Origin: Fusobacteriota bacterium | Lineage (GTDB): Bacteria; Fusobacteriota; Fusobacteriia; JAPLKR01 | Direction: 5' to 3' | NCBI GenBank assembly: GCA_026387965.1 | Contig: JAPLKR010000103.1 | Location: forward strand, 1-64,000 | DNA: 64,000 nt | Shown here: piece after piece, positions 41,320-56,583 of the stretch | Layout: each line of letters opens with the position of its first letter | Position numbering within the stretch: position 1 is the first letter of the stretch | The notes under the pieces: model-generated | Told to the model about the DNA's origin: nothing | What the model saw: the letters and a program-made list of their open reading frames with translations, nothing else | Databases searched by the model: none | Position numbers and translations under genes: made by a program

Positions 41320-42387
41320 TTAATGTTCAGCTTTTGCCATAAAGTATATTCCAATAATCAACGCTATAATTTTAGGACATAACACCAAAATTATTGTTGG
41401 TAAGCGAGGGTTTCCTGCAAGTGTAATAAAAATTGAATTTATAATAAAAAATCCATATCCAATAACCACCGCAAGTGCAATACTTACTGCTGCACCTCCT
41501 CTTACATAACGACTTCCTAAGGCAAATCCTAAAAAGCATGTAAAAAAGCTCATAAAAGGAAAAGCGAATACTTCATAAAAAGTGGCTAAAAGTTCGGTCT
41601 TTTGTTTTAACGTAAAGTTATAACTTCCAATGATTTTATAAAGTTCCCATGGTGTAGTACTCTCAGGGGTAACAGTTCTCTGTATGTCCTCTTTAAATTG
41701 AATATTTATAAAATCCGCAGAATATAAGGAAATTGTTTTAATGGTTCCCTTTTGTATATCATTTACGGTCACGTCATGAAGTGTCCATACACCACTTCTT
41801 TGCTCTCCACTTCGAGCAGTAAAGATCATCATAACTTTCGAAAAATCAGGGGAAACCTCGACAACTTCCATATTTGTAAACGTTTTTAAAATAACATTAG
41901 CCTGCTGGAAATAATAATAGAAATTTCCTGACTTCATATATGAATTATTTAAAATTGGACTTTCTTTAATCTCGCCATTAGATCGGTGCTGTAAATTATT
42001 TGAAAAATACGTCAATTTAGGTGCCCATTCTGTATTCACATAAAGTAAAAAACAAGACAAAATAAACGTGACGATTATGGGGTATATCATAATTCTTTTT
42101 AAACTTATTCCACTCGTTTTGAGAGCAATTATTTCCAAACTGCTAGCCATTTTATTGGTAAACATCAAACACCCAATGAGAACGCCTACTGGCGCAACCA
42201 TAACAATATGAGAGGGTAAAAGTTCTAAAATAGAGATCATACCAGCATTTATAGAATAATCGCCTTGTAAAACAGGACTTATCACTCTAAAAAAATCTGA
42301 AAGAAAATAAAATAGAGTAAATGCAGCTATTCCAATTGTAATGGATTTGATATAATTTATGGTTACGTAGCGATCTAACTTTTTCAT
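41320..42387 (-). CDS. lptG: LPS export permease LptG
   Basis: 355 residues, YjgQ/LptG fold: three N-terminal helices (DRYVTINYIKSITIGIAAFTLFY), a periplasmic jellyroll domain (SGNFYYYFQQANVILKTF, WTLHDVTVND) and three C-terminal helices ending IALIIGIYFMAKAEH. With LptF and the ATPase LptB it lifts LPS from the inner membrane. It starts 8 bases after lptF. It is less hydrophobic in the jellyroll than LptF, in keeping with the family. Confidence 0.85.
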   Translation of the reverse strand: MKKLDRYVTINYIKSITIGIAAFTLFYFLSDFFRVISPVLQGDYSINAGMISILELLPSHIVMVAPVGVLIGCLMFTNKMASSLEIIALKTSGISLKRIMIYPIIVTFILSCFLLYVNTEWAPKLTYFSNNLQHRSNGEIKESPILNNSYMKSGNFYYYFQQANVILKTFTNMEVVEVSPDFSKVMMIFTARSGEQRSGVWTLHDVTVNDIQKGTIKTISLYSADFINIQFKEDIQRTVTPESTTPWELYKIIGSYNFTLKQKTELLATFYEVFAFPFMSFFTCFLGFALGSRYVRGGAAVSIALAVVIGYGFFIINSIFITLAGNPRLPTIILVLCPKIIALIIGIYFMAKAEH

Positions 42388-42395
42388 ATATATTC

Positions 42396-43493
42396 CTATC
42401 GTGTTTTTTTCTGTTTAATAAATAAAAATATTGAAAATATGATGAGAACAATATTAGGATACCACATCCCAAAAAATGGTGTAACCGCACGATTGAGTGC
42501 TAACATTGTGCCAACTTGCATCATGGCAAGATATATAAATATTAAAATCAAACTAAATCCAAAACTAATGCCTTTACCAGAACGTCTATTTTTTATAGAC
42601 AAAAGGGTCCCTAAAAAAATTAAGATTATTGGCGAAAAGGACATAGCTAAATACTGTTGCAACATAATCTGATCAGGAATAGAATCCCCATGTCCCTCTC
42701 GTGTTGTTTTAATTCTTTCAAGTAGCTCACCTAAAGAATAATAGGCATTATTATCGACACTTGAAGAATTTAAATTAGCTGTAAAACTTCCCAGTGGAAT
42801 AACTTGTGAAGAAAAGGTTCCAGTAATATTGGCTTTCCCCGTATTATCCATACTATAAATCATCCCATTACTCAGGGCAATTTCACCACTGCTCATTTTC
42901 ATATTTTGAGCTACAGTAACCATAGGAAACACACCGTTAATATTTTGAAAATAGATCACATTTGTCGCAGTATTAGTCGATTTGTTCAGATTCTCAACAT
43001 ATAGACTAAAGCCCGGAATATCTTGCAAAAATTGGCCTGGAATTATTAACATTGTGGGCCTGGAAAATAGCATTTGCTTAACAACATTTTCCATTTTTGT
43101 TCTCGTGTCAGGCACAACATACTGCAAAATAAATAGAACAAAAAAACATATAAGTACGCCAATAATAATGGCGGTACGTGTAAGTCTTCTCACGCTCACT
43201 CCAGCAGCTTCAAAAGCTGTAATTTCGCTATTTGCCGATAGACTTCCAAAAGCAATCATAGTCCCCATTAATACACCCATTGGAATAGTAAAAATAAGTG
43301 TTGAAGGAAGCATGTATGCAAGAAGTTTTATAATAAGAATTGGATTAATTTGTTTTTGTACCAAATTATTCATTTCATTGACTAACTGTTCAATAAGAAA
43401 AAGACATGCAAAAATTCCTACTCCAAAGATAAGTGGAGGCATCATAGTCTGAATAATGTATCTATCTAATATTTTAAGCTTAATACTTCGCAC
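42396..43493 (-). CDS. lptF: LPS export permease LptF
   Basis: 365 residues, YjgP/YjgQ family: DRYIIQTMMPPLIFGVGIF at the start, TIPMGVLMGTMIAFGSLSANSEITAFEAAGVS (the coupling-helix region), a periplasmic domain, then a C-terminal membrane part FSPIILIFLGTLLSI. Assigned as LptF from its position before LptG and from the EITAFEAAGVS segment. LptB is encoded 7 kb upstream in the same cluster. Confidence 0.85.
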   Translation of the reverse strand: MRSIKLKILDRYIIQTMMPPLIFGVGIFACLFLIEQLVNEMNNLVQKQINPILIIKLLAYMLPSTLIFTIPMGVLMGTMIAFGSLSANSEITAFEAAGVSVRRLTRTAIIIGVLICFFVLFILQYVVPDTRTKMENVVKQMLFSRPTMLIIPGQFLQDIPGFSLYVENLNKSTNTATNVIYFQNINGVFPMVTVAQNMKMSSGEIALSNGMIYSMDNTGKANITGTFSSQVIPLGSFTANLNSSSVDNNAYYSLGELLERIKTTREGHGDSIPDQIMLQQYLAMSFSPIILIFLGTLLSIKNRRSGKGISFGFSLILIFIYLAMMQVGTMLALNRAVTPFFGMWYPNIVLIIFSIFLFIKQKKTR

Positions 43494-50652: not shown

Positions 50653-51390
50653 TTATAATAATTTACTTTTGAATTCAAATTCATTTCCTAGATAATGTTT
50701 AATAGCAAGCGGGTCAACTGCCACTTCTGAACTTGTTCCACTTACTAAAATTTTTCCCTCAGACATAATATAAGCACGTTCTGTAATAGAAAGCGTCTCC
50801 CTTACATTATGGTCCGTTATAAGTATCCCCAATCCACGATTTTTTAGATATAATATGATGTTTTGAATATCTGCAACGGCAATTGGATCAACCCCCGCAA
50901 AAGGTTCGTCAAGCAAAATAAAGTCTGGCTCATTCGCAAGTGTGCGCGCAATTTCCACACGTCGTCGCTCTCCTCCAGAAAGAGAATATCCAAAACTTTT
51001 AGCAATATGACTAATTTTAAACTCTTCAAGAAGCCCATCCTTAATTCTAATACGCTCTTTTTTGGCAATATTTTTTAGCTCAAGTATCGTCAGAATATTT
51101 TCTTCAACAGTAAGATTTCTAAATACCGAAGCTTCTTGAGCAAGATAACCTAGTCCAAGCCTAGCTCTTTTAAACATTGGAAAATTCGTAATCTCTTCTT
51201 CATTATAATATACTTGCCCACCATCAGGTTTTACTATTCCGGTAATCATATAAAATGTCGTTGTTTTCCCGGCACCATTTGGACCTAAAAGCCCTACAAT
51301 TTCACCTTTATTAATTTGCAAGCTCACATCACTTACAACTACTCTTTTTTTATATATCTTTTTCAAATTCGTAGCTATAATATCTTTCAT
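50653..51390 (-). CDS. lptB: LPS export ABC transporter ATP-binding protein LptB
   Basis: 245 residues. Walker [20 protein letters not shown]-loop [13 protein letters not shown], signature [18 protein letters not shown], Walker [14 protein letters not shown] and the H-loop [10 protein letters not shown]. The [12 protein letters not shown] and FAGVDPIAV segments are characteristic of LptB. It powers LptF/LptG, which lie about 7 kb downstream. It is directly preceded by two OstA-type genes, as expected of an Lpt locus. Confidence 0.95.
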
Positions 51391-51398
51391 ATATTCTC

Positions 51399-53623
51399 CT
51401 ATTTATAATTATAGCGTATATTGTAGCCATAAATTTTTAAATTTTGACTCGCAATATCATACACTCCCTCATCAACATTTGTAATGTTGAGATTTTTTTC
51501 AGTTGCTGAGACATTTTTGCTAAAATATATCTTTTGAGCGACATTATCAAACATTGCATTTTGGCCTGTTACTGTAACTTCGTTTCCATCACTGATTAAA
51601 TTTGAAACAACATTTTTAATCACATAAATTTTATTTTGCGATACAATGTAATTAAGAATTTCGCCCGTAACTGTCACCACATACGGATGCCCATTTGTAT
51701 TTACTGCAGAATAATTTACCGTAACATTTTCTTTTCCTGTAATAACATCATTAAGTTTATCGTAATTGATCGTGTTACTTCTAAGCGTTCCATTCACAGT
51801 TTTTAAAAAAGCATCACCTTGCATCACGGCTCCACACACTTCTTCTTGCGAGGGGCCATTAATATTTTGTTTTGTGTATTGTACAACAATTTGCTGTGCA
51901 CCAAAAGTTATATTTTTTGTTTGTGGATTACCTTGAGTATTCACCCAATTTCCTGTCACATTACCATTCGCCGTTAATGTTTGGGTAATATTATCAAGCA
52001 CAATGGTTGAAGCATTGGTATTATCACCAATTGTTGAGCTAAACTGAGCATTCCCGCTCGCATCCATCTTATTTACACCCTCATTGTCACCTTGCAATAG
52101 GGTATTAATTCGGTTTGCCACTAAATTATAAGTTACGAGTCCCACCCCTGGTCTTTCACTCAGTGTAATAATTTTGGCATTACCGACTGATTCAGCTGTA
52201 TGTCCTACCAAATCACATGCTATATGATTTCCATAGACTTGATATTTATTATCTATATTAACATACCCTTTACCATCAAACGTTCCAGACATTAACACAT
52301 TGTTATTTCCAAGTACTAAAGACATTTCATTCGCAGAATACGTTACTGCATTGGCTCCAATAATTTTACCTGATACATTTCCCGAAGCATCCAAACTCTT
52401 ATCACTCACAAGTGCGATTTTACTACCTGTTAAAAAATCGCCTAAAGAATCGCTAAATCTAGAGCCTACTCCTGTTAGATTAACACTACTCAGCTCAGCT
52501 GCGCTTCCATTTTTTAAAAAATTGGTCAAAATGATATTCGAAATTACATTGTATGTTACTATTACCCCATTTTTCATATTATCTAATTGCATTTTACCAT
52601 TACCATTAACATTAAAATAAGTCGTGGTATCCGTTATAATTTGATTACCATAAATATATTGCCCATTATCGGCAAGTATTTTAGCATTTCCTGAAATATT
52701 TAATAGCGTAATCTTCCTCGTTGCTTTCGAAAAATTTGTTTGTAAACTATCGCAGTAAATTGTTATCTGTTTAGAATTAATAGCCCCTTGATTTTTAGAG
52801 TTATTAATAATACTTTTTACTGAGCCTTTAGCTATAACTATTCCATTTGTGTACTGCACTTGGTTAGCTTGAAGCTCTCCAAATGACTGACTATTTATAT
52901 TTACAACACCATTCATTAAAAGTGATGACACATTATCTTTTGAAAACGTTATCACCGCTACATCACTTTGAATCGCTGTACTATCACCGTTTTGAGCGAT
53001 TACCCCATGAACATTCCCTGTTAAATTAGCAATTGAGCTTTTTTGAGAATACACGAGTCTATTACATTCAATATGACTATTGCCTTTATCTAGAACTGAA
53101 TTATTTCCTGAAAAATTCTGGTTTTTCAAGTCAATGACAGGGTTATTATTCAAAATAATCTGACCGCCACTACTTTTAATTGTCATAGATTTACTTGATG
53201 TCAATAGTTGTGTCGAACGATTATACGTAACATCTGTTCCATCAACTTCAATACTACTTGTTTTAATGACGACGCTACCTTCCAACTGTATCGTCGGAGA
53301 GTTTTGGTATGTTGAGACACCGCCACTCGCATTAAATTAATAGAACTATCCGTTTTACTGTAAATACCATTATTTGATTGCAGGGTATAATTTTGTGAAA
53401 CCAGTTTAGGGTTAATAAAAGTCACCTGAGTTCGCTCTGAATTCACTGACTGCTTATCTGCTGTTAGTGTATAATTTTGATCTAAAACAAACTTTGCGTT
53501 ACTCATGGTAATTTCACTAGATGATGAAAAATTTGCAGTTGATGGCGAATCTTTTTTTACATACAAATAATAACATAAAATTATCACTGCAATGGTTATG
53601 ATTATTTTAACCCTTTTTTTCAC
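51399..53623 (-). CDS. Membrane-anchored OstA/LptA-repeat protein 2 (single-base frameshift)
   Basis: Reading the frames together gives about 741 residues. A basic start and one membrane helix ([17 protein letters not shown]) lead into an LptC-like segment ([16 protein letters not shown]). Many OstA-type beta repeats follow (for example [48 protein letters not shown]). The frame changes near 53335. Adding one A in the AAT-TTA-ATG stretch restores [21 protein letters not shown], so a one-base deletion or sequencing error is very likely. GGAGG precedes the GTG at 53623. Paralogue of the next gene. Probable periplasmic LPS carrier. Confidence 0.75.
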
Positions 53624-53743
53624 ATCAGCCTCCAAATTATTCACACTTAACTCTTTTACATTTTATGCTATATCAAATATAACCACTAACTATTATATCA
53701 TAATTTTTTATATATTTTAAGTAGCGATTATCATAATTTTATC

Positions 53744-53778
53744 ACAAAAAGAGAGTGATATAGGCTATCACTCTCTTT
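53744..53778 (-). terminator. Terminator between the two OstA-type genes
   Basis: AAAGAGAGTGATA - short loop - TATCACTCTCTTT with T run on the minus strand. It would reduce transcription from the mutS/OstA1 side into OstA2 and lptB, so a separate promoter in 53640-53745 is expected (an AT-rich TATAAT box is present near 53690). Confidence 0.8.
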
Positions 53779-53784
53779 AAAAAA

Positions 53785-56583
53785 TTATTTTTGTAAATTG
53801 ACTAATTTCATAGCAATGTGGTCACTTCCAATAAGTGTATTTGTTATCAAATTGTATGTTGCTTTATTTGAACTGATTGTATTGCCATTTTTATAAACTG
53901 TAGCACTTCCATTCATCACTATTAAGTTGTTCTTCATATCAATTTTGGCTTCTTGAGTTGTAATATTTGCATTTCCAGAGATTTTTGTTTTATTTAGAAT
54001 TTTCACATTATACATCAATGTCGTTACTAAATTAGTGATATCACTTTTTATGTATTGCGCAGTAGCCTCAATATGCATAATATCCACTTGAGGTGTTTCT
54101 ACTCCAACTTCTTTTGAGGTCTTAAATGACGCCTGCCCTTTGGCTAAAATATAACTACTAAAATTATCAAATTCCATAAAGTTTGCTTTGAGTTCGCTTG
54201 TGTCATATTTTACTTTCCCATTTCCTTGCAACTCGACTCGTGATACTACATACTTCTTTGTTCTCTGAAGTGTTGCCTGCGAAAAATAGACTTTCGCTGT
54301 TGAACCCGAAAAATTTATTGGAACCAAAAGATTTGATTTAGTCGCATTAAATCCTTTTGAGTTTTTCTGAACCGTTAGAGGAATCACTGTCCCCACAACA
54401 TTTCCTGTAAAATTAAATTGCATCAGATTCAAATCTCCCGTTGCTTTACTTGCTGAAATTTTATCACCAAGTGTAGAGGTGACTATGGGGAAATTTGCAG
54501 AGAGGGTTTTAGTTTCAAAATTCACCTGTCCACTACTGCTTACCATTTGCATCGAATTATAATTTAGGGCCGACATAGTCGAATAGCTTATATCTCCTGA
54601 CACAGTATTATATGTCAATTTATCACTCTTAATGGATGAGTTTTCTTGAGTTAACATAACATTTCCAGACAATACTAAAATCTTTGTTAATGTGTTATAT
54701 TTAGCAAATTGTGCACTATAATCCATGTCTTGGTTACTCCCAGTAACGCCATTAAGTGTTACGTTTTGAGTGACAGCGTCTAAAACACCTGATGAAAAAT
54801 CCACTGAATAATTTTCACTACTATTAACAATCGAACCACTATTCGGCATATTTCCTTTCTTTTTTACAAGATCATATGTCGCATTTTTAGTGTTCAGTAT
54901 CGAGCCATTGTCGTTTACTTCAACATTTCCAATAACTTGTAGCAAACTATTTCCAGAAATATTTATCTGACCGTCTGTTTTGCCCGTAATATTTTGAGTA
55001 CTGTTAGTAAAATAAACGTTTCCACCTAAAGTTCCATTACCACTCTTAGCGTTATATGTTAAGGTGGTTCCATAAATCAAATACCCCTTATAGCCAATAG
55101 TAATTAGTGATTGTATGGTGGCCAAATTGGTATTTCCATTATAGTTCAAGTGAGTCGCGGTTAATGTGTAGCTGTTTTTTATATCTGAAACTGTAAATTG
55201 AGATACTACATTGATTTTATTTGAAGCGAGATTAAATTTAATGTCTGAAGCTGCCAAAACATAATTCTTTTGTTTTAAAATAACATTACCTATAGCTTCA
55301 ACAGTGCCATTTTTAAAATTAAACACCACTCTGTCAGCTCGTGACTCTTGACCATTATACAATGTGGTCACATTTGAAGCCACACCTGTCTCACTGTTTT
55401 GGTTATATTGTAAATTGCTCCCTACACCTGTCACAAGTGTTTTATACTGAGCAGAATACGTGAAAACACCTGGAATTAAAACGTCTCCACTATTAGAGTT
55501 AACACTCATTTTATCACTAATAAGCGTTTCTCTCGAATTCTTTGCGATAACTTTAGATGAATCTTCACCTACAAATGTTGTGATTTTGGATTTTTCATCA
55601 CAGATAACAGAGGGTGCACGCACAGATAACCCGTTTGAACTTCTAATCACTTCATCACTACCTGAAACAAGTGAATTTACAGCATCAATCGTCATCGTTG
55701 TTGCTATGAAGTTACCAATACTGTCACTGCCGCTAACAGGGCCATCTAACGTAGCTTTTTGTGATATCATATCAAATGCATAACCTTTTGAAGAAACATT
55801 CACATCTAAATACTTTAGGTTAGATGTTCCAAGCGCTCTACCGGTATTGTTTTTTAAATTATAACTTAGTAAATTTCCTTTTAGCGTGATAGCGTCAGCC
55901 ACTACCGCATACCCACCAAACAAATCCATATCTTGGGTGATTGTGTTGATTTTTACCCCATTTGCCCCACCTATAAGTGCAGCAATATCACCCTTATCCG
56001 TTGTGATATTTTGACCATCAATACGAATATTCCCCGAAAGCGTTACAGTTGAGTCACTGTTTGAATACGATGCACTATCGCAAGTAATCGTATAATTTTT
56101 AAAGTCAAGCACAACATTGCCTTTCAGTGTTACTTGTGAATAATCTTGAATAGCTTTGAATGTATCACCAGTAATTTTAGTTCCAGTAGTTTTATTTTCG
56201 AATACTGTTTCACCATTTGCAAGAATCATTCCAGTATTTTTTGTATACTCAATTGCCGATGTAGTGACTGACCATCCTTGGGTATTCTCCCCATACACAC
56301 TACCTGTAAGCGATAGGTTGTCTGAGCTATCTAAAACCCCATTATTTCCTTGTAAAAACCCATTATTAATAGAGGCTTTTACGTGATTTAGCTCGATTTT
56401 TCCACTTTGAGTAGTTTGAGAGTCGGCCACAACCGTATAATTACTATCTATAACATACTTTACTTTATTCATTGAAACCTTATACGTTGAGTCAGGTATT
56501 TTTTCTTCTTTTTTAACATAAACTAATACGATAAATACCGCTATAACGACCACAATAACAGCAATCACAATTTTCTTAAGCAA
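53785..56583 (-). CDS. Membrane-anchored giant OstA/LptA-repeat protein 1
   Basis: 932 residues, several times the length of LptA (about 185) or LptC (about 190). One N-terminal membrane helix (KIVIAVIVVVIAVFIVLVYV) is followed by LptC-like NKVKYVIDSNYTVVAD. The rest is strand after strand of OstA-type sequence (SLTGSVYG, VTLKGNVVLDF, VEAIGNVILKQKNYVLAASDIKFN, LVLSGNVMLTQENSSIKSDKLTYN). No Cys-rich or enzymatic motif is seen. The start is TTG at 56583 after AAAGGAT. By fold it is a long periplasmic beta-groove attached to the inner membrane; the bridge role is inferred. Confidence 0.8.
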   Translation of the reverse strand: MLKKIVIAVIVVVIAVFIVLVYVKKEEKIPDSTYKVSMNKVKYVIDSNYTVVADSQTTQSGKIELNHVKASINNGFLQGNNGVLDSSDNLSLTGSVYGENTQGWSVTTSAIEYTKNTGMILANGETVFENKTTGTKITGDTFKAIQDYSQVTLKGNVVLDFKNYTITCDSASYSNSDSTVTLSGNIRIDGQNITTDKGDIAALIGGANGVKINTITQDMDLFGGYAVVADAITLKGNLLSYNLKNNTGRALGTSNLKYLDVNVSSKGYAFDMISQKATLDGPVSGSDSIGNFIATTMTIDAVNSLVSGSDEVIRSSNGLSVRAPSVICDEKSKITTFVGEDSSKVIAKNSRETLISDKMSVNSNSGDVLIPGVFTYSAQYKTLVTGVGSNLQYNQNSETGVASNVTTLYNGQESRADRVVFNFKNGTVEAIGNVILKQKNYVLAASDIKFNLASNKINVVSQFTVSDIKNSYTLTATHLNYNGNTNLATIQSLITIGYKGYLIYGTTLTYNAKSGNGTLGGNVYFTNSTQNITGKTDGQINISGNSLLQVIGNVEVNDNGSILNTKNATYDLVKKKGNMPNSGSIVNSSENYSVDFSSGVLDAVTQNVTLNGVTGSNQDMDYSAQFAKYNTLTKILVLSGNVMLTQENSSIKSDKLTYNTVSGDISYSTMSALNYNSMQMVSSSGQVNFETKTLSANFPIVTSTLGDKISASKATGDLNLMQFNFTGNVVGTVIPLTVQKNSKGFNATKSNLLVPINFSGSTAKVYFSQATLQRTKKYVVSRVELQGNGKVKYDTSELKANFMEFDNFSSYILAKGQASFKTSKEVGVETPQVDIMHIEATAQYIKSDITNLVTTLMYNVKILNKTKISGNANITTQEAKIDMKNNLIVMNGSATVYKNGNTISSNKATYNLITNTLIGSDHIAMKLVNLQK

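Follow-up and report, generated by a model that had tools for sequence, protein, structure and literature searches.

The window analyzed here, the whole 64,000-nucleotide stretch at the start of contig JAPLKR010000103.1 of a Fusobacteriota bacterium (assembly GCA_026387965.1), contains upstream of lptB a gene for a 932-residue protein that resembles both LptC and LptA, which link the inner-membrane and outer-membrane parts of the lipopolysaccharide (LPS) transport (Lpt) machine. The LptC-LptA architecture of this protein is solid, and its reading as an LptC and an LptA in a single chain is well supported. Between this gene and lptB lie the two parts of a second, related gene. The locus thus comprises the following:

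53785 to 56583, minus strand: 932-residue membrane-anchored LptC-LptA single-chain protein (helix 2-23, beta strands 36-926; LptC-like 33-216, LptA-like 793-932)
53201 to 53623, minus strand: 5′ part of the second giant gene (open reading frame [ORF] as listed 53201 to 53644, 147 codons), with an N-terminal helix and an LptC-like start (TIGR04409, E value 3.1e-4)
51399 to 53285, minus strand: 3′ part of the second giant gene, 628 codons in the other frame, open from about 53336; C-terminal residues 497 to 628 are predicted to fold like LptA
50653 to 51390, minus strand: lptB, LPS exporter ATPase (TIGR04406, 359 bits, E value 7e-108)

A preliminary description of the window had placed two giant proteins, of 932 and about 741 residues, before lptB. 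The first stood up as an uninterrupted 932-codon ORF encoding an N-terminal helix and matching the LptC and OstA families. The second is not one ORF; a length of about 741 residues is reached only by joining the 147- and 628-codon ORFs over a frameshift.

Sequence and predicted fold of the 932-residue protein

The gene starts with a TTG codon located 20 bases past the stop codon of mutS and preceded by a GGAAAGG motif. The protein has a single strongly hydrophobic N-terminal helix (19-residue peak hydropathy of 3.64 near residue 5), and its hydropathy never exceeds 1.2 beyond residue 40. Using Pfam, we identified matches over the cut-off to LptD_N/LptA (PF03968; five stretches, E value 9.5e-19) and LptC (PF06835; E value 2.6e-7), as well as a match to OstA_2 (E value 3.3e-9), while no TamB or AsmA family was found among the Pfam matches up to an E value of 1. 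Among the NCBIfam models, TIGR04409 for LptC scored 53.9 bits, over its cut-off of 38 bits, and TIGR03002 for LptA scored 56.0 bits, under its cut-off of 71.7 bits. In a profile search against PDB chains, LptA ranked highest (E value 1.4e-9), followed by LptH, LptD, and LptC.

An AlphaFold2 model built on 31 homologues had a mean predicted local distance difference test score (pLDDT) of 87.9 and a predicted template-modeling score (pTM) of 0.53. In this model, a helix at residues 2 to 23 is followed by strands from residue 36 to 926, and the longest gap between strands is at most 6 residues. The predicted strands are, therefore, continuous, with no linker that would separate unconnected domains, while the geometry of the chain as a whole is uncertain at this pTM. 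In structural comparisons, LptC of the LptB2FGC complex fits residues 33 to 216 (6mit_C, Z-score 13.5, root-mean-square deviation [rmsd] 2.1, 134 aligned residues), and a second LptC chain, 6mjp_C, fits residues 32 to 154 at a Z-score of 12.1. LptH and LptA fit residues 793 to 932 (4uu4, Z-score 13.1, rmsd 1.8; 2r1a and 2r19, Z-score 12.8), and Foldseek returned the same families. Isolated LptC structures also fit the C-terminal end (Z-score 11), as would be expected of a shared fold, and the assignment of the two ends to LptC and LptA, therefore, rests on the best-scoring matches. LptD entries reached the top overall scores but with very large rmsd, as expected when different domains are each aligned to one of several repeats.

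The strand positions recur every 14 to 15 residues. Over 890 residues, this amounts to about 61 passes and, at 0.48 nm per pass, to about 29 nm, which is an arithmetic upper bound and not a measured length. The in-out hydrophobic alternation of the strands is above that of shuffled sequences (z 4.0) and alike in all four quarters of the protein. One uninterrupted hydrophobic groove may run along the modeled chain.

Partner genes, relatives, and paralogues

In the genome to which the window belongs (1.79 Mb in 141 contigs, 95.5% complete), just one LptF/LptG pair was found, which is encoded in the window:

42396 to 43493, minus strand: LptF/LptG-family permease (243.8 bits)
41320 to 42387, minus strand: LptF/LptG-family permease (189.9 bits)

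The genome also contains lpxC, lpxA, and the gene for lipid IVA Kdo transferase. Our search for lptD yielded LptD-like proteins on three other contigs, two of 1098 and 1149 residues that share 50% identity and another of 1123 residues (L009:7833-11129, L010:3016-6465, and L116:9153-12524, respectively), the first of which has an N-terminal LptA/LptD_N match in Pfam. The LptA and LptC models matched only the giants and the LptD-like proteins in this genome, and no short, normal-length LptA or LptC frame was found even at E values up to 10.

To follow the giant across the class, we surveyed 41 genomes, i.e., this genome and 40 relatives of the same class. The giant is present in 38 of the 41 genomes, LptF/LptG in 38, and LpxC in 37. 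The same three genomes (G018, G029, and G039) lack the giant, LptF/LptG, and LpxC; in the 40 genomes besides G001, the giant and LpxC are either both present or both absent. The neighborhoods read mostly have the order mutS-giant-lptB-alaS-ruvX-secD-secF with one giant each; in G012, lptB is not directly beside the giant, and in G003, other ORFs lie between the two (1070 and 569 codons; L098:8284-13749). None of the relatives examined has the second gene of the window. The giants of the relatives are mostly 724 to 918 residues long. LptA-family matches over the cut-off in the relatives fell in frames of about 740 to 940 residues or of LptD size, except for one 430-residue giant and one 454-residue frame in the position of an LptD-like protein. 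The matches listed for the 38 relatives with an Lpt system included no short LptA or LptC. Two short candidates were rejected, i.e., a 151-residue ORF in G037, which was below the cut-off and unlike LptA by eye, and a candidate in G040, which was also below the cut-off and by eye a nucleosidase-like protein. Similarly, a fused LptF-LptG in G002 and G004, hinted at by frames of 727 to 728 residues, was discarded as the ORF lists show separate adjacent genes. All 31 of the 31 aligned homologues matched both the LptC and the LptA families. Conservation peaks at residues 1 to 120 and about 690 to 930 and drops to its minimum in the middle, a pattern that docking ends and a spanning middle would produce. 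As a side observation, the FadA adhesin family was detected in 21 of the 41 genomes and in 0 of 14 control genomes; FadA being a marker of the Fusobacteriia, this supports the placement of the surveyed genomes in that class.

The second gene of the window likely starts at a GTG codon (53621 to 53623) with GGAGG ahead of it. Three further features bear on its reading and transcription:

53297 to 53338, minus strand: change of reading frame in the second gene, placed by codon-usage likelihood
53748 to 53778, minus strand: hairpin resembling an intrinsic terminator, with a T run behind it, located between the two giant genes (−17.9 kcal/mol, z −6.0)
53692 to 53720, minus strand: promoter-like site with an extended −10 element upstream of the second gene and lptB, a consensus match only, such matches being no more numerous in this region than by chance

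Because of the hairpin and T run, one transcript probably terminates with the first giant gene, and another probably begins with the second gene and lptB. Both ORFs of the second gene fit the profile of the giant family, the 147-codon ORF matching its N-terminal end and the 628-codon ORF its C-terminal part. Because both pieces match, the second gene is, judged from its sequence, a real but divergent relative of the giant family that is broken as sequenced. The predicted fold of the 628-residue part has a mean pLDDT of 69 and an unreliable middle, and its last 130 residues match LptA (2r1a, Z-score 14.7, rmsd 1.4). The break represents either an assembly error or decay. In the same assembly, the threonyl-tRNA synthetase gene thrS (contig C24, L009:5862-7632) is likewise split, with TIGR00418 matching at 1-288 and 334-564 in two overlapping frames; indel errors in the assembly are, therefore, plausible and may likewise underlie the broken frame of the second gene. 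Programmed frameshifting was not supported, as the change point could be placed no more narrowly than 53297 to 53338 and the sole nearby candidate, T AAT TTA, is a non-canonical slippery heptamer. Read-through by one four-letter codon was rejected because its shift runs in the opposite direction.

A further giant, intact and 906 residues long, is encoded on contig C60 (L010:265-7999) where it directly follows an LptD-like gene and a gene for a 308-residue protein, which is a probable lipoprotein based on its N-terminal LFMGCS. The 906-residue giant is 29% identical to the 932-residue protein, and their pairing had a support of 100/100 in a tree with long branches. This arrangement suggests that the C60 genes form a second outer-membrane export pair. 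There are no LptB, LptF, or LptG genes of its own near this giant and its LptD-like neighbor.

A probable bridge in one chain and competing readings

We consider it likely that the 932-residue protein is a complete periplasmic LPS bridge in one chain, reaching from LptFG to LptD. The fused LptC-LptA bridge that the preliminary description had proposed is supported, for this protein, by the LptC fold at the N-terminal end, the LptA fold at the C-terminal end, the lack of short LptA and LptC in the genomes searched, the presence of the partner genes, and the class-wide conservation beside lptB. Neither of the outcomes that the description had named as refuting, a normal-length lptC and lptA elsewhere in the genome or unconnected predicted domains, was encountered, although the whole-chain geometry is uncertain. 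We infer the docking partners and LPS as the cargo; the co-loss of the giant with LptF/LptG and LpxC in 3 of the 41 genomes bears only indirectly on whether the giant binds lipid A and is needed for LPS transport. In such a bridge, the N-terminal helix and the LptC-like domain would attach to LptB2FG at the inner membrane, the OstA-type groove would continue over about 60 beta passes, and the C-terminal LptA-like domain would contact the OstA domain at the N-terminal end of LptD. Cycles of the LptB ATPase would push lipid A along the groove, as in the known Lpt machine, and the length of the bridge would be genetically fixed in place of a chain of separate LptA copies.

Several observations weigh against this interpretation. 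The middle of the protein, about residues 464 to 751, fits single-layer MORN-type sheets (Z-scores 10 to 11) about as well as LptA, and the modeled groove may, therefore, flatten or open there; moreover, the pTM of 0.53 leaves the whole-chain geometry uncertain. The LptD barrel model PF04453 found nothing in the window's genome, and the LptD-like proteins were, therefore, assigned by homology, length, and an OstA match at the N-terminal end. In the class, the intact giant between mutS and lptB of G037 has only 430 residues (L094:7237-8529), about half the usual length, and G001 keeps the giant and LptF/LptG without detectable LpxC. Length and cargo are, therefore, not uniform. G001 (L100) has a reduced genome of 0.8 Mb that is 91% complete; either its Lpt machine may transport some lipid that is not LPS, or the sequence may be incomplete.

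The case of G001, together with the existence of lipid-bridge proteins of similar length, would fit a role of the giants in carrying phospholipid or another lipid instead of LPS, in the manner of TamB/YhdP. We regard this as most improbable given that sequence and fold match LptA and LptC and no TamB or AsmA is among the Pfam matches, that the gene stands beside lptB, and that the giant tracks LpxC in the other 40 genomes, the incompleteness of G001 being a caveat to its own case. It is also very unlikely that the giant is an elongated LptC only, serving as a scaffold or tether, with an unrecognized divergent short LptA completing the bridge. Sequence searches detect LptA poorly, PF03968 yields at most 36 bits per repeat here, and a very divergent short protein could thus escape detection in an assembly of 141 contigs at the completeness given above. 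However, the searches for short LptA and LptC in the window's genome and in the matches listed for the relatives came back empty, the short frames that were met scored below the cut-off and looked unrelated when read, and the C-terminal end of the giant itself has the LptA fold.

More room exists for two or even three parallel bridges, in which the second gene of the window and the 906-residue paralogue would serve separate export lines, possibly with LptD copies of their own and for a different glycolipid. The intact paralogue directly downstream of an LptD-like gene and the presence of three LptD-like proteins are in agreement with this idea, as are the LptA-like end and the 628-codon open frame that the second gene retains and the split thrS, which suggests indel errors. 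Nevertheless, the second gene carries a frameshift in the available sequence and was not seen in the relatives examined, and only a single LptF/LptG pair was found, which makes parallel bridges doubtful; at the locus itself, the frameshift and the restriction of the second gene to this lineage leave the two parallel bridges envisaged earlier unsupported. The more elaborate version, in which several single-chain bridges of fixed length (932 residues; 740 residues, with the break being a sequencing error; and 906 residues with its own LptD-like protein) each serve a different glycolipid or LptD, is unlikely. Overall, we favor the reading of the 932-residue protein as a single-chain bridge.

Relation to known Lpt systems

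It has been described as uncertain how many LptA copies make up the LPS bridge and whether the bridge has a fixed length or one that adapts to the periplasm (PMC6164715). Here and nearly throughout the class, a single very long membrane-anchored protein seems to take the place of the short linking proteins. In a class in which the whole bridge is apparently one polypeptide with conserved ends and a middle of variable length, bridge length would become a fixed and testable property. By implication, compounds directed against LptA-LptC or LptA-LptA contacts would lack their target in Fusobacteria, and surveys for short lptA and lptC genes can misjudge these bacteria. Our literature search, confined to open-licence papers, turned up no account of a single-chain LptC-LptA bridge in Fusobacteria.

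Large OstA frames also turned up among 16 genomes outside the class, which were reached through other loci and searched for such frames; a scan with LptB peptide patterns, which were too specific to retrieve any Fusobacteria, supplied the Acidobacteriota and other comparators. Two metagenome-assembled genomes of Acidobacteriota encode proteins of 815 (L049) and 785 (L052) residues directly before lptB, with LptC domains at residues 34 to 204 and 40 to 209, respectively, and LptA repeats up to the C-terminal end; an Aminicenantes genome (L110) encodes a similar 617-residue protein directly before lptB. Based on these comparable genes and their domain matches, the LptC-LptA fusion architecture is wider than the Fusobacteria and not unique to this locus or class. 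These fusions share with the 932-residue protein the LptC part near the N-terminal end, the LptA part extending to the C-terminal end, and the position immediately upstream of lptB, but are shorter (about 620 to 815 residues). In the Acidobacteriota, an ORF of about 530 codons follows lptB where Fusobacteria have alaS, and the LptC domain is recognized full-length by Pfam, unlike that of the 932-residue protein.

Among systems with separate proteins, diderm Firmicutes have two OstA-domain proteins of about 200 residues beside lptB and lptF/G that are taken as LptA and LptC (PMC5007114); in contrast to the giant, these are short and unfused, and no LptD was found there (PMC5007114). The Lpt-like system of Borrelia burgdorferi has the gene order lptC-lptA-lptB outside the Proteobacteria (PMC10353723), but this bacterium lacks LPS, keeps LptC and LptA as separate proteins, and has an LptC predicted to be a lipoprotein (PMC10353723). 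In Escherichia coli, LptF suppressors give an LptC-independent six-protein bridge, i.e., the seven-protein bridge can work with one component fewer (PMC9972910); that bridge is a laboratory suppressor without LptC, whereas the giant keeps the LptC part in fused form. With LptC and LptA of E. coli and other Proteobacteria, the giant shares the OstA/beta-taco fold, the membrane helix on the LptC side, the location beside lptB, and the partners LptB, LptF, LptG, and LptD. There, LptC and LptA are separate short proteins arranged head to tail, LptA possibly in several copies, while the giant is one chain about five times as long as either.

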